Source: Catenuloplanes atrovinosus
GTDB taxonomy: Bacteria > Actinomycetota > Actinomycetes > Mycobacteriales > Micromonosporaceae
DNA: 64,000 bases
Direction of reading: 5' to 3'
NCBI RefSeq assembly: GCF_031458235.1
Contig: NZ_JAVDYB010000001.1
Coordinates: 8,395,001-8,459,000, forward strand
Positions within the stretch are counted from its first letter, which is position 1. Each line of letters begins with the position of its first letter. This document shows, in pieces, positions 22,494-27,547 of the stretch. The notes beneath the pieces were generated by a model. The model was given only the letters and a program-made list of their open reading frames with translations. It was not told where the DNA came from and made no database searches. The position numbers were made by a program, and so were the translations under genes.

Positions 22494-22758
22494 GCGCGGC
22501 GGCCCGACTCACCGGGGCGAAACGTCCACATTTGGCGCTCGGTTCGCCGCGCGGCGCGTACCGTAGAGGGGCCCACGACATCGGGTCCCCCGTTCTCGAT
22601 GTCGGGCGTCGGCACCACCCGCCGGTCGCTCGCGATGCAGGCCGGCGGCGCGCGGTGCCGGGGCCGCCGGCAGGTCCCGTGCCGGCGGCCCGCGCACACG
22701 CCGCGACCATGCAAGATCCGTAATGCGCCCGCAACGAGATCGGCGTAATTTCCAGCGC

Positions 22759-24357
22759 ATGGCGGACCTGTTCGAGGACTATCGCCTCGGCCCCGGATGG
22801 GACGAGATGTTCGGCGAGCCCGGCATGCCGCGGGAGATCTACGAGGCGCTGCACGGCACGCTGCAGCCGCTCTCCAGCGCCGAGCTCGGCGTGCGCGCGG
22901 ACGTGCTGGCCCGCGTGTTCCTCGACCAGGGCATCACGTTCGCGCTCAAGGGCGTGGAGCGGCCGTTCCCGCTGGACATCGTGCCCCGGATCATCGCGAA
23001 CGCGGAGTGGGAGGCGGTCTCCGCCGGCGTCGCGCAGCGCATCCGCGCGCTGGAGGCGTTCCTCGCCGACGTCTACGGCCCCGGCCAGGTGCTCAAGGAC
23101 GGCGTGGTGCCCCGCCGGGTGGTGATGACCTCGGGCGGCTTCCACCGCGCGGCGTTCGGGATCACGCCGCACAACGGGGTGCGCGTGCACGTCGCCGGCG
23201 TCGACCTGATCCGCGACGAGCGGGGCGTGTTCCGGGTGCTGGAGGACAACGTCCGCATCCCGTCCGGGGTCAGCTATGTGATGGAGAACCGGCGTGCGAT
23301 GGCGCACGTGCTGCCGGAGGTGTTCGCGGCCACCCGGGTCTGCCCGGTCGACTCGTACCCCGCGATGCTGCTCACCGCGCTGCGCGCCGCCGCACCGGTC
23401 GGCATCAACGACCCGACCGTGGTGGTGCTGACGCCGGGCGTGCACAACTCCGCCTACTTCGAGCACACGCTGCTGGCCCGCGAGATGGGCGTGGAGCTGG
23501 TCGAGGGCCGCGACCTGATCTGCGTGGGCAATGAGGTCGCGATGCGCACCACGGCCGGCGAGCAGCGGGTCGACGTGATCTACCGCCGGGTCGACGACGA
23601 GTTCCTCGACCCGGTGCAGTTCCGGGCCGACTCCGTGCTCGGCGTGGCCGGCCTGATCAACGCGGCCCGCGCCGGGCGGGTCACCATCGCGAACGCGGTG
23701 GGCAACGGCATCGCGGACGACAAGCTGCTCTACACGTACGTGCCGGAGCTGATCCGCTACTACCTCAACGAGGAACCGCTGCTGCCCAACGTGGACACGT
23801 ACCGGCTGGAGGAGCCGGACGCGCTGGCCCACGTGATCGACCGGCTGGACGAGCTGGTGCTCAAGCCGGTCGACGGCGCCGGTGGCGCGGGCATCGTGAT
23901 CGGCTCGCAGGCCTCGGACGAGGAACTGGCCGCGGCCCGCGAACGGGTGCTCGCCGACCCGCGCGGCTGGATCGCGCAGCGCGAGGTGAAGCTCTCGATG
24001 GTGCCCACGCTGGTCGGCAACCGGCTGCGCGCCCGGCACGTGGACCTGCGCCCGTTCGCGGTCAACGACGGCGAGCGGATCCGGGTGCTGCCCGGCGGCC
24101 TGACCCGGGTGGCGCTGCCGGAGGGCGCCCTGGTGGTGAACTCCAGCCAGGGCGGCGGCTCCAAGGACACCTGGATTCTGGCGGCGGAACCGTCCCTGCC
24201 GGACGGCCCGCCGGTGCTGGAGCACGTCGAGCCGGACCCGGCGCTGGAACAGCTGGTCGAGGGCCACGCCGCGCCGGACCCTGGCCCCGGCACCGCGGCC
24301 ACCGGCGGTCAGGAGCAGCAGGAGCAGCAACAGCAGGGGAGGTACGCCGCATGCTGA
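22759..24357 (+). CDS. Circularly permuted ATP-grasp type 2 protein
   Basis: A 532-residue DUF404/DUF407-type amidoligase. ALKGVERPFPLDIVPRII and FLADVYGPGQVLKDG mark the N-terminal part, the ATP-grasp core includes VLEDNVRIPSGVSYV, GIADDKLLYTYVPELIRYYL and LKPVDGAGGAGIV, and WIAQREV ends the fold. The tail from about residue 485 is Gln/Glu/Pro-rich and disordered. Predicted reaction: ATP-dependent peptide-bond formation. It is coupled to an alpha-E protein and a transglutaminase-like protease, a trio proposed by Iyer and Aravind to make and process an unknown peptide. ATG 22759 gives the family-like MADLFEDY start; ATG 22723 is also in frame. Confidence 0.87.
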   Translation: MADLFEDYRLGPGWDEMFGEPGMPREIYEALHGTLQPLSSAELGVRADVLARVFLDQGITFALKGVERPFPLDIVPRIIANAEWEAVSAGVAQRIRALEAFLADVYGPGQVLKDGVVPRRVVMTSGGFHRAAFGITPHNGVRVHVAGVDLIRDERGVFRVLEDNVRIPSGVSYVMENRRAMAHVLPEVFAATRVCPVDSYPAMLLTALRAAAPVGINDPTVVVLTPGVHNSAYFEHTLLAREMGVELVEGRDLICVGNEVAMRTTAGEQRVDVIYRRVDDEFLDPVQFRADSVLGVAGLINAARAGRVTIANAVGNGIADDKLLYTYVPELIRYYLNEEPLLPNVDTYRLEEPDALAHVIDRLDELVLKPVDGAGGAGIVIGSQASDEELAAARERVLADPRGWIAQREVKLSMVPTLVGNRLRARHVDLRPFAVNDGERIRVLPGGLTRVALPEGALVVNSSQGGGSKDTWILAAEPSLPDGPPVLEHVEPDPALEQLVEGHAAPDPGPGTAATGGQEQQEQQQQGRYAAC

Positions 24358-25289
24358 GCCGGATCGCCGAGTCGCTCTACTGGATCGGCCGGTACGTGGA
24401 GCGCGCCGAGGACACCGCGCGCATCCTCGACGTGCACCTGCACCGCATGCTCGCCGACCCGTGGATCGACGAGCAGACCGCCTGCCGCTCGCTGCTGTCC
24501 GTGATGGGCGTGGCGACGGTCGAGCCGCCCTACACGTCCGCGCGCATGGTCGGCCTGCTCGGCCTGGACGAGCGGAACCCGAGCGCGGTCACCGGCGCGC
24601 TCGCCGCCGCCCGGGAGAACGCGCGCGGCGCCCGCGAGACGATCTCCGCGGAGATGTGGGAGTGCCTGAACGCGACCTGGCACGGCCTGCCGGACGCCCG
24701 CCGCCGCGTCGACCAGCAGGGCGTGCACGCGTTCTTCCGCTGGGTGCGCGAGCGCTGCTCGGTGATGACCGGGCTGACCGACGCCACCATGAGCCGCGAC
24801 GAGGGCTGGCTGTTCCTGGTGCTGGGCCGCAGCGTGGAGCGGGTGGACATGACCGCGCGGCTGCTCTCCACGCACGTCGGCGCGGGCGGCAGCATCCCGT
24901 CGTGGCTGACGCTGCTGCGTTCCTGCGGCGCCTGGGAGACGTTCCTGCGCACGTACCGCGGCGCGCTGGACGACCGGCACGCGGCCGAGTTCCTGCTGCT
25001 GGACCGGCTCTTCCCGCGCTCGGTCTTCGCGGCGCTGGCCACCGCCGAGTCGTGCCTGCGCGACCTGGAGCCGGAGCCGGGCCGCGCGGGCGTGGCCACG
25101 GAGGCGCAGCGCATCGTCGGGCGGGCCCGCACCAACCTGGAGTTCCGCGGCGCGGACGAGCTGCTCGGCGACCTCGGCACCGTCCTGGCCGGACTCCAGC
25201 GCACCTGCTCGCAGGTCAACGACGCGGTCTCCCGCCGGTACTTCCGGCAGACCGGCGCGGTCCGGTGGGTCAGCGAGGTGGCGGTCTGA
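24351..25289 (+). CDS. Alpha-E domain protein
   Basis: A 312-residue all-helical protein opening LSRIAESLYWIGRYVERAEDTARILDV (first 20 residues after Met are diagnostic), with ETISAEMWECLNATWHGL and VERVDMTARLLSTH. The alpha-E domain has no known catalytic activity and nearly always accompanies a circularly permuted ATP-grasp. ATG 24351 lies seven bases inside the ATP-grasp gene. Its stop shares one base with the next start (TGATG). Confidence 0.87.
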   Translation: MLSRIAESLYWIGRYVERAEDTARILDVHLHRMLADPWIDEQTACRSLLSVMGVATVEPPYTSARMVGLLGLDERNPSAVTGALAAARENARGARETISAEMWECLNATWHGLPDARRRVDQQGVHAFFRWVRERCSVMTGLTDATMSRDEGWLFLVLGRSVERVDMTARLLSTHVGAGGSIPSWLTLLRSCGAWETFLRTYRGALDDRHAAEFLLLDRLFPRSVFAALATAESCLRDLEPEPGRAGVATEAQRIVGRARTNLEFRGADELLGDLGTVLAGLQRTCSQVNDAVSRRYFRQTGAVRWVSEVAV

Positions 25290-26149
25290 TGGTCGACTCG
25301 TGGCGCCTGAAGATCAGGCACCGGACCGGGTTCACGTACGCCGGGAAGGTCCGCTCGTCGTACAACGAGGCCCGGATGTCGCCGCGGAACGAGGCCCGCC
25401 AGGCCGTGCTGGACGCGCGCGTGGAGGTGTGGCCGCCGGCCCGCACGCACCGCTACGAGGACTACTGGGGCACCGTGGTCACCGCCTTCGACGTGCACTC
25501 CCCGCACGACCGGCTGGAGGTCACCGCGACCGCCACGGTGGAGACGCTGCCGGCCGGCGACCGGCTTGCCGCGCACGAGGGCGTCTCCTGGGACGACCTG
25601 GCCGTGCCGGACACCGTGGACCGCTGGTACGAGTTACTGCTGGCCACGCCGCGCACCCGGCTCGACGAGGAGCTGACCGCGCTGGCGACGGAGATCGCCG
25701 GTGTGCACGCCACGCCGCACGCGGCCGCGCTGGCGCTGTGCGAGCGGATCCGGCAGGACGTCACGTACCAGACCGGCGCGACGGGCGTGCAGACCGACGC
25801 GGTCCACGCCTGGCGCCAGCGCAAGGGCGTCTGCCAGGACATCAGCCACCTGGTCGTGGGCCTGCTCCGCGCGATGGGCACGCCCGCGCGCTACGTCTCC
25901 GGCTACCTGCACCCGGCGCCGAACGCGGGCATCGGCGAGAGCGTGACCGGTCAGAGCCACGCCTGGGTCGAGTGGTGGGTCGGGCGCTGGACCGCGTTCG
26001 ACCCGACCAACGGCGTGCCGGTGGGGGAGCGGCACGTGGTGGTCGGGCGCGGCCGGGAGTACGGCGACGTGACGCCGCTGAAGGGCGTCTTCTCCGGCCC
26101 GGCCAACACCGGCCAGGAGGTCGAGGTCACGTTAACCCGGCTGCGCTGA
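25289..26149 (+). CDS. Transglutaminase-like cysteine protease family protein
   Basis: A 286-residue protein. The N-terminal domain (about 1-110) is the beta-rich region paired with bacterial transglutaminases (RLKIRHRTGFTYAG). The core has catalytic Cys in RKGVCQDISHL, His in GQSHAWVEWW and Asp in FDPTNGVPVG. No signal peptide, so cytoplasmic action is likely. In this trio it may hydrolyse or cross-link the product of the ATP-grasp enzyme; that is inferred from conserved gene order, not from known biochemistry. Confidence 0.87.
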   Translation: MVDSWRLKIRHRTGFTYAGKVRSSYNEARMSPRNEARQAVLDARVEVWPPARTHRYEDYWGTVVTAFDVHSPHDRLEVTATATVETLPAGDRLAAHEGVSWDDLAVPDTVDRWYELLLATPRTRLDEELTALATEIAGVHATPHAAALALCERIRQDVTYQTGATGVQTDAVHAWRQRKGVCQDISHLVVGLLRAMGTPARYVSGYLHPAPNAGIGESVTGQSHAWVEWWVGRWTAFDPTNGVPVGERHVVVGRGREYGDVTPLKGVFSGPANTGQEVEVTLTRLR

Positions 26150-26163
26150 GGACCTTCCACGAG

Positions 26164-26169
26164 TACGGT
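26164..26169 (+). promoter_or_regulatory. -10 element (TACGGT) for the Thr leader transcript
   Basis: TACGGT ends seven bases before the leader-peptide ATG at 26177, implying a leaderless leader ORF. No convincing -35 at 17-18 bases. Confidence 0.5.
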
Positions 26170-26176
26170 GGGCGCC

Positions 26177-26239
26177 ATGCGATACGGCCAGCTGACGACG
26201 ACGCCGGGTTTCCCCCGGCGGCGACGGTCGGTGCGCTGA
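26177..26239 (+). CDS. Putative threonine-codon leader peptide
   Basis: A 20-codon ORF starting MRYGQLTTTPGF, with three consecutive ACG threonine codons at positions 7-9 (26195-26203), then an Arg-rich end and TGA at 26237. It stands directly upstream of a threonyl-tRNA synthetase gene and is followed by two hairpins. This is the layout of classical attenuation, in which ribosome stalling on uncharged tRNA-Thr would change downstream RNA folding. The Thr run next to a ThrRS gene is seen in the sequence; the regulatory role is inference. Confidence 0.55.
   Translation: MRYGQLTTTPGFPRRRRSVR
26202..26220 (+). promoter_or_regulatory. Leader hairpin overlapping the last Thr codon
   Basis: CGCCGGG pairs with CCCGGCG across a TTTCC loop. 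A ribosome stalled on the ACG codons would mask its left arm, as expected of the first helix in an attenuator. Confidence 0.5.
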
Positions 26240-26256
26240 CGCACGTCGACATCCGC

Positions 26257-26286
26257 AAGCCCCGGGGCGAGTTCGCTCCGGGGCTT
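26257..26286 (+). terminator. Candidate attenuator terminator ahead of the ThrRS gene
   Basis: AAGCCCCGG pairs with CCGGGGCTT, with an inner GCGA/TCGC helix, followed by the pyrimidine-rich CGTTCTTCCTC. It lies between the leader peptide stop and the ThrRS ribosome-binding site. Confidence 0.6.
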
Positions 26287-26341
26287 CGTTCTTCCTCGCC
26301 CGGTGCGGCTCGCCCCCGTACCCGCGAAGGAGAGAACCGTC

Positions 26342-27547
26342 ATGAACGATCACCGCAGGCTGGGCCGCGAACTGGAGCTGTTCGCGACCGACCCGCTGGC
26401 CGGCGCCGGCCTGCCGCTCTGGCTGCCGGACGGCGCGGCCGCGCGGCACGCCGTGGAGGAGTACCTGCGCGAGGAGGAGCGCCGCGCGGGCTATCAGCAC
26501 GTGTACTCGCCGCCGGTGGGCAAGCGGGAGATGTACGAGATCAGCGGGCACCTGCCGCACTACGCGGACGACATGTTCCCGGTGATGGCGCTCTCCTCCT
26601 CGCCCGACGACGAGTTCGTGCTGAGACCGTCGGCCTGCCCGCACCACGCGCTGATCTACCGGTCCCGCGGCCGGTCCTACCGGGAGCTGCCGCTGCGGAT
26701 CGCGGAGCTGGGCGGCATGTACCGGTCGGAGCGGTCCGGCGTGCTCGGCGGGCTGAGCCGGGTGCGCGGCATGTGGCTCAACGACGCGCACGTGTTCGCG
26801 CCGCTGGAGCTGGTTCACGAGGAGATCGCGCTGGTGCTGCGGATGGTGGGCCGGGCGCACGCGGCGCTGGGCGTGAAACCGGCCGGGTTCCGGCTGTCGC
26901 TGCGCGGCGACGGCCCGAAGTACGTCGGCGAGGGCGCGATGTGGGACGAGGCCGAGGGCATCCTGCGGGACGTGCTGCGCGACTCCGGCCGCGCGTTCGC
27001 CGAGGAGCCGGGCGAGGCGGCGTTCTACGGACCGAAGATCGACATCCAGGTGGTGGACGCGGGCGGACGGGAGATGACCCTCTCCACCGTCCAGCTGGAC
27101 TTCCACCAGCCGGCCCGGTTCGACCTGTCCTACGTGGACTCGTCCGGCGCCCGGCGGCGGCCGGTGATGATCCATCGCAGCCTGGTGGGGAGCATGGAGC
27201 GGCTGTTCGCGTACCTGATCGAGGTGCACGACGGCGCGTTCCCGCTCTGGTACGCGCCGCGCCAGCTCCAGGTGCTGCCGGTCTCGGCCGGGGAGGAGGA
27301 CGCGGCGCACGCGTTCGCGCGCGCCGCGGTACTGGCCGGGTTGCGCGCGGAGGTGGTGTCCGACGGGTCGGTCTCGTCCCGGGTCCGGCTGTCCGCCAGG
27401 CAGCGGGTGCCGTACGCGGCGATCATCGGCCCGGCCGAGGCGGCCGCCGGGGAGGTCTCGCTGCGCCCGCGCAACCAGCGGGGGCTGGCGCCGATGCCGG
27501 TCGAGGCGGCGCTGCGCGCGCTGCGGGCCGAGGCCGATCCGCACTGA
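26342..27547 (+). CDS. thrS: Threonyl-tRNA synthetase, short form without TGS/editing domains
   Basis: A 401-residue class II synthetase. The three zinc ligands of ThrRS are present: Cys in SACPHHALIY, His in LNDAHVF and His in MIHRSLVGSMERL. Motif 2 reads RELPLRIAELGGMYRSE. The C-terminal anticodon domain is about residues 300-395 (LQVLPVSAGEED). The N-terminal TGS and editing domains of the usual roughly 690-residue bacterial ThrRS are missing, so it cannot edit mischarged serine in cis. ATG 26342 follows AAGGAG (26327-26332). It may be a second ThrRS for stress or inhibitor tolerance, or supply threonyl-tRNA to a side pathway. Confidence 0.85.
   Translation: MNDHRRLGRELELFATDPLAGAGLPLWLPDGAAARHAVEEYLREEERRAGYQHVYSPPVGKREMYEISGHLPHYADDMFPVMALSSSPDDEFVLRPSACPHHALIYRSRGRSYRELPLRIAELGGMYRSERSGVLGGLSRVRGMWLNDAHVFAPLELVHEEIALVLRMVGRAHAALGVKPAGFRLSLRGDGPKYVGEGAMWDEAEGILRDVLRDSGRAFAEEPGEAAFYGPKIDIQVVDAGGREMTLSTVQLDFHQPARFDLSYVDSSGARRRPVMIHRSLVGSMERLFAYLIEVHDGAFPLWYAPRQLQVLPVSAGEEDAAHAFARAAVLAGLRAEVVSDGSVSSRVRLSARQRVPYAAIIGPAEAAAGEVSLRPRNQRGLAPMPVEAALRALRAEADPH

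Follow-up and report, generated by a model that had tools for sequence, protein, structure and literature searches.

The window, a stretch of 64,000 nt from the genome of Catenuloplanes atrovinosus to which all positions refer, contains a short open reading frame (ORF) with a run of threonine codons, a series of predicted RNA helices, and a threonyl-tRNA synthetase gene, thrS (Table 1). The first-pass annotation had described a 20-codon ORF with three consecutive ACG codons, the hexamer TACGGT seven bases before its ATG, a hairpin starting from the last of the Thr codons, a stronger second hairpin with a pyrimidine tail, and a gene for ThrRS. We found the ORF, the hexamer and both hairpins, including the tail. 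The downstream gene does appear to encode a ThrRS; it is not the full-length enzyme but a short paralogue.

Table 1. Positions of the leader, the predicted RNA helices and thrS in the window
Feature	Position	Strand	Description
-10 box TACGGT	26164-26169	+	7 nt upstream of leader ATG; leaderless start inferred
Leader ORF, MRYGQLTTTPGFPRRRRSVR* (asterisk, stop)	26177-26239	+	20 codons; ATG at 26177, TGA stop at 26237-26239
Control codons ACG ACG ACG (Thr x3)	26195-26203	+	
Hairpin 1 (strands 1:2)	26202-26220	+	Arms 26202-26208 and 26214-26220; begins in third Thr codon
Alternative helix 2:3 (predicted antiterminator)	26213-26267	+	26213-26218 with 26262-26267; 26220-26222 with 26259-26261
Hairpin 2 (strands 3:4), terminator-like	26257-26286	+	Arms 26257-26269 and 26274-26286; 13 bp
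Pyrimidine-rich tail of hairpin 2	26287-26297	+	26289-26297 (9 nt) contains 5 U
Alternative helix X	26265-26315	+	26265-26273 with 26307-26315; 9 bp
Hairpin 3	26288-26337	+	Arms 26288-26299 and 26324-26337; 4 of 5 thrS Shine-Dalgarno nucleotides paired (MFE fold)
thrS Shine-Dalgarno sequence AGGAG	26328-26332	+	
thrS, short threonyl-tRNA synthetase	26342-27547	+	401 aa; ATG at 26342

There is no Shine-Dalgarno (SD) sequence upstream of the leader ATG in the window. The sequence directly 3' of hairpin 2 is UUCUUCCUC, and helix X has a second register, found by eye, in which 26265-26271 pairs with 26295-26301. The region from 26179 to 26345 is predicted to fold more stably than 200 of 200 dinucleotide shuffles (z = -3.56). 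In the MFE fold of the window, nucleotides 26193-26197, in the region of the first Thr codon, pair with 26338-26342, which lie at the start codon of thrS, and this pairing closes the entire leader. Genes for a circularly permuted ATP-grasp protein, an Alpha-E protein and a transglutaminase lie directly upstream of the leader (22723-26149), and by eye the end of a transglutaminase gene precedes the leader in several relatives too.

The short ThrRS scored 414.2 bits against TIGR00418 (cut-off 383.65), with a match that covers only positions 171-564 of the 565 in the profile, and it aligns with the Staphylococcus aureus ThrRS from residue 241 onward. Because the profile match begins at 171 and the alignment at 241, the protein is predicted to consist of the catalytic core and the anticodon-binding domain, without the N-terminal TGS/editing region. 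The Cys, His and His of the S. aureus enzyme, which we take to be its zinc-binding residues, are conserved in this alignment. Judged by the family score together with the zinc and active-site residues, the gene product is predicted to be a threonyl-tRNA synthetase. Another ThrRS encoded in the source genome (8.9 Mb, a single contig) is full-length, with 704 aa counted from a start codon assigned in this analysis. Its catalytic part is at G000:C1:979457-980620 and is 43% identical to the short ThrRS over the part they share; there is no Thr leader in the 400 nt upstream of this full-length gene. The closest named relative that we found is Catenuloplanes japonicus, with a synthetase identity of 84%. 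Both organisms are actinobacteria of the Micromonosporaceae.

We compared 137 loci with a short ThrRS, belonging to five families: 92 from the window's own family and 45 from four others (296-genome class sample). The 92 loci are part of the genomes in that family with a short ThrRS, picked by score and spread over genera. One locus (L010) was left out as its leader region is the same as that of L004, and two others (L005 and L096), probably a single record, were both counted. A leaderless leader ORF encoding Thr-Thr(-Thr)-Pro was present at 134 of the 137 loci, with three Thr codons at 131 and two at 3. The first-pass annotation had expected that relatives would keep the Thr codons and both hairpins and diverge in the remainder of the peptide; the alignment agrees on all three points, and the leaderless start is kept as well. 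By this comparison the leader, its Thr codons and the leaderless promoter appear to be conserved features. There were three loci without a match, two at contig ends (L046 and L144) and one (L109) in which the Thr run is lost. L109 retains the -10 box, the ORF and hairpin 1 with a single Thr (MHISVSSTAPASPGVGSS*), and may represent a natural loss of the sensor.

We searched the 420 nt upstream of 30 full-length thrS genes, the 30 best-matching loci from a search that matched 142 of 148 genomes, with a like rule (leaderless start and Thr-Thr, Pro not required), and found a leader at none (0/30). In the 296-genome class sample, the leader pattern was present in 50 genomes, a short ThrRS (E <= 1e-115) in 47, and both in 43. 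Four genomes had the ThrRS only: two (G400 and G539) are cases of contig ends, and two (G447 and G456) have diverged leaders (L146 and L145). The seven genomes with the pattern only include one (G337, locus L154) whose short ThrRS carries an in-frame internal repeat insertion of the GGERL type, and four (G264, G353, G469 and G514) whose matches seem unrelated, judged from the matched string alone. Another pattern-only genome, G488, has no short-ThrRS match at the E <= 1e-115 cut-off, and there a Thr leader with hairpins 1 and 2 precedes a full-length ThrRS (L153, G488:C55:36813; 40% identical). In the remaining pattern-only genome, G481, a leader and hairpins (L155, G481:C18:1-330, - strand) are followed by an open frame that reaches the contig end after 27 codons; no ThrRS-like residues are visible in this frame, which may belong to a different gene or to an N-terminal extension. 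Long, low-complexity N-terminal extensions appear to be present in the short ThrRSs of L053, L060 and L144 (families f20 and f19). Within the window's own genome, the full leader pattern was found only in the window, and a loose Thr-Pro pattern gave 27 matches, compared with 19 for a reversed control, and no extra copies of the leader.

The sequence TANNNT was located 6-7 nt before the leader start at 129 of the 134 loci, compared with 0.8 expected from shuffles, a count that is conditional on the leader search, which itself demanded TANNNT within 4-10 nt. An SD-like motif preceded none of the 134 leader starts and 122 of the 134 thrS starts. The spacing of the -10 box and the absent SD fit a leader that starts at the transcription start.

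Hairpins 1 and 2 were predicted at every one of the 134 loci, with dG <= -6 for hairpin 1 and dG <= -15 for hairpin 2. In an alignment of 41 of the 43 sequences outside the window's family (A2; L145 and L146 omitted), 89.2% of the cells of hairpin 2 are paired, and both-side changes were counted for 7 pairs (2 of 500 shuffles) and 17 cells (0 of 500). Helix 2:3 of the window, with strand 1 withheld and strand 4 absent, had a predicted probability of 0.85 (9 bp, one bulge), and P(2:3) exceeded 0.5 at 133 of the 134 loci when strand 1 was withheld and strand 4 not yet made. With strand 1 present, the folding computation for the window gave P(1:2) of 0.68 and P(2:3) of 0.17. In the four other families, with strand 1 free, mean P(1:2) was 0.17-0.40 and mean P(2:3) was 0.46-0.75; strand 1 is thus no clear winner, and the outcome there would have to depend on which helix folds first. 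In these computations, helices 1:2, 2:3 and 3:4 are mutually exclusive and the control codons are in strand 1, and helix 2:3 is predicted to be the antiterminator of a classical attenuator.

Forbidding hairpin 2 costs a mean of 6.2-12.9 kcal/mol, depending on the family. Because structures that lack hairpin 2 are far less stable than those that have it, an ON state would have to be kinetic and not at equilibrium, and we rejected equilibrium switching. The 9-nt tail of hairpin 2 has at least five U at 11 of the 134 loci, the window included, and the tails contain more U than the region around them (2.60 and 1.36 U per 9 nt, respectively). Because real U-tracts are rare in the relatives, transcription termination is not secure as the sole output of the leader.

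Folding of the relatives revealed a third predicted hairpin, located over the SD of thrS. Helix X would be formed by the 5' arm of hairpin 3 and a complementary segment made up of the 3' part of strand 3 and the hairpin 2 loop. On the same 41 sequences from the four other families, 94.6% of the cells of helix X are paired, and both-side changes were counted for 4 pairs (0 of 500 shuffles) and 13 cells (0 of 500); slid controls were 32-60% paired. For one of five measures, the number of further pair types, X was no better than shuffles (227 of 500 as good). Hairpin 3 is 81.5% paired on these sequences, and its both-side changes affect 6 pairs (37 of 500 shuffles) and 20 cells (1 of 500). When an arm was permuted among species, native X and native hairpin 3 each did better than every one of 5000 permutations, whether in the window's own family, in the other families or in all combined. 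This result holds with 62, 38, 23 or 13 mutually dissimilar representatives, and a decoy segment in the permutation test gave no signal (1503/2000). The comparison thus points to hairpin 3 and X as conserved elements along with hairpins 1 and 2.

Individual loci varied. Against dinucleotide shuffles, X reached p <= 0.05 at 61 of the 134 loci and hairpin 3 at 51. In the window alone, X was modest (p = 0.02), hairpin 3 was not significant (p = 0.54), and X was poor in two close relatives (L004, p = 0.98; L007, p = 0.80). Of the elements in the window itself, hairpin 3 is weak and X moderate; the leader, the first two hairpins and helix 2:3 are clear. With hairpin 2 forbidden, X had a probability above 0.5 at only 55 of the 134 loci, and the mean predicted accessibility of the SD went from 0.35 to 0.38 in the window's family and stayed at 0.21 in family f20 (0.21 to 0.21). 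The best X duplex takes at least 3 nucleotides of the hairpin 2 stem at all 134 loci, and the loops of hairpin 2 have 3-6 nt. Because X uses stem nucleotides and the loops are this short, X cannot coexist with an intact hairpin 2. For the same reason we rejected, as the main form, a pseudoknot in which hairpin 2 stays intact and its loop pairs with the anti-SD arm.

Because hairpin 3 and X beat the permutations family-wide, the data suggest that Thr-tRNA charging may control both read-through and the unmasking of the thrS ribosome site. We give the SD layer, taken alone, about even odds. It would apply at the level of the family and is not proven for the locus in the window, because hairpin 3 has p = 0.54 there, X is poor in L004 and L007, and the computed folding shifts SD accessibility little.

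Two simpler schemes use a subset of these helices. In one, control would be by translational attenuation only: hairpin 2 would be no terminator, and the leader ribosome would choose between hairpin 3, with the SD covered, and X, with the SD open. The rarity of U-tracts fits this scheme, as does the covariation of X and hairpin 3, and the authors of the Streptomyces lividans study likewise report no U-rich stretch (PMC8079986). However, predicted SD accessibility barely shifts when hairpin 2 is blocked, and hairpin 2 is strong throughout and, in the window, is followed by a pyrimidine tail. We consider control by translation alone unlikely, although it retains some weight. In the other scheme, control would be by transcription attenuation only, with hairpin 2 an intrinsic terminator, helix 2:3 the antiterminator, and no role for hairpin 3 and X. 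The classical order of the strands, the five U in the tail in the window, the enrichment of U in the tails and the weakness of hairpin 3 in the window are all consistent with it. It is difficult to reconcile with the small number of loci that have at least five U, and it leaves the family-wide covariation of X and hairpin 3 unexplained. On balance, transcription attenuation alone seems improbable.

The codons of the leader allowed us to separate constraint on the peptide from constraint on the RNA. Synonymous variation is seen at the first Thr codon (ACG 105, ACC 25, ACT 1; n = 131) and, rarely, at the second (ACG 131, ACC 2, ACT 1; n = 134). The third Thr codon, ACG, and the Pro codon, CCG, which form an arm of hairpin 1, are invariant (134/134), in a leader search that left third positions free. 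Because the first codon varies synonymously, these patterns argue for a run that codes for Thr, separable from the RNA constraint on the arm of hairpin 1. No NCBIfam model matched the leader peptide. A motif, TTTPG or TTTPExVPAR*, recurs among the leaders, and the ORF might encode a functional small peptide or be a by-product of the constrained RNA. We regard both as very improbable: the residues that precede the Thr run are variable, the reading frame of the C-terminus shifts at some loci (L013, L141 and L143), the constant codons coincide with the hairpin arms, and the synonymous variation argues for Thr coding.

An Rfam 15 scan of the window gave no family at the gathering score, the T-box and proteobacterial Thr leader families included, and a T-box or other Rfam RNA at the locus was rejected on that basis. 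T-boxes have been predicted for some actinobacterial synthetase genes (PMC1262725), and the Escherichia coli ThrRS controls its own expression (PMC2965389), but a Thr-codon ORF that varies synonymously is in keeping with a peptide leader, and control of thrS by a T-box or a tRNA mimic has very little chance of being correct.

We therefore favor a ribosome-mediated attenuator that senses the charging of Thr-tRNA and controls a spare, editing-free ThrRS, and put the probability of this reading at roughly 0.8. Transcription would start at the leader ATG, and a ribosome would initiate there without an SD. When Thr-tRNA is ample, the ribosome would clear the three Thr codons and hairpins 1 and 2 would form. 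In this OFF state, transcription would tend to stop or pause at hairpin 2, and in any mRNA that is read through, hairpin 3 would mask the SD of thrS. When Thr-tRNA is scarce, a ribosome stalled at the ACG codons would cover strand 1, strands 2 and 3 would pair ahead of the synthesis of strand 4, and hairpin 2 would be avoided. X would then capture the anti-SD arm before the SD is transcribed, leaving the thrS SD open (ON). This route would be possible because of the order of transcription; thermodynamics alone would be insufficient. Stalling, the order of folding, termination and induction by threonine starvation are the steps that we infer.

The full cascade, a six-strand co-transcriptional domino in which a stalled leaderless ribosome would prevent hairpin 2 and then, by way of X, open the SD, so that both transcription and translation are controlled in five families, is a tentative proposal to which we assign somewhat less than even odds. 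The first-pass annotation was right about the elements present and very probably right about what the leader senses: the attenuator layout that it proposed, responding to Thr-tRNA charging, is supported by the alignment, in which the Thr run, the hairpins and the leaderless start are kept. If the reading is right, many of these bacteria hold a second, proofreading-free ThrRS off until Thr-tRNA charging fails, the trigger would be a shortage of threonine or inhibitors of ThrRS, and the charging of Thr-tRNA could be read out through the leader, a compact natural reporter. The pair of X and hairpin 3 would make the mode of attenuation in GC-rich bacteria without U-tracts directly testable.

In translational attenuators of the erm type, a stalled leader ribosome causes hairpins to re-pair in a cascade that frees the SD. 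Those attenuators respond to macrolides and not to tRNA charging, and the Thr leader differs from them in having a terminator-like hairpin inside the cascade. A second ThrRS is also known from Anabaena, where T2 is stress-induced when the main enzyme fails (PMC9437257); T2 is induced by low zinc, and the relevant parts of that report describe no leader peptide.

Leader-peptide attenuators of Actinobacteria include those of leuS, trpS, trp and ilvB, and Leu and Trp attenuators have been predicted before synthetase genes of Streptomyces (PMC1262725). They share with the Thr leader an ORF with control codons, an antiterminator and a terminator before synthetase or biosynthesis genes. No threonine attenuator appears in the sections of that paper considered here, and thrS and threonyl are absent from its main text. 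The leaderless polycysteine ORFs of mycobacteria (Canestrari 2020, as cited in PMC9031893) likewise use a run of identical codons to sense one amino acid and control downstream genes. Unlike the Thr leader, they concern cysteine and other genes.

The closest known case is thrL of S. lividans TK24, located before thrS (SLIV_19412 and SLIV_19410), which was found to be leaderless by start mapping in 2021 and was proposed to be an attenuator, with one hairpin reported and termination described as "not clear" (PMC8079986). The idea of a Thr attenuator is therefore not new. Compared by eye, its peptide (MKRVRPFLETTPGFVPAR) is likewise a Thr leader, with two adjacent Thr codons as compared with three in the window, and it ends in PAR*, as do most leaders of families f18-f21; hairpin 3, helix X and the distribution of the leader do not appear in the sections of the account considered here. 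In Table 4 of the same paper, TTTPG, the core motif of the Thr leaders, also occurs in the metL leader that precedes metNIQ in S. lividans, and it may be worth re-examining the assignment of that leader to methionine. Among the literature searched, thrL, thrS and Streptomyces occurred together as whole words in PMC8079986 only, and an SD switch for a thrS leader was not described in the titles and abstract beginnings of the open-licence literature. The kind of control is thus known and one member was named in 2021, the SD switch is probably new, and the broad conservation of the leader, its link to an editing-free paralogue and the conservation of the switch appear to be new within the literature searched.
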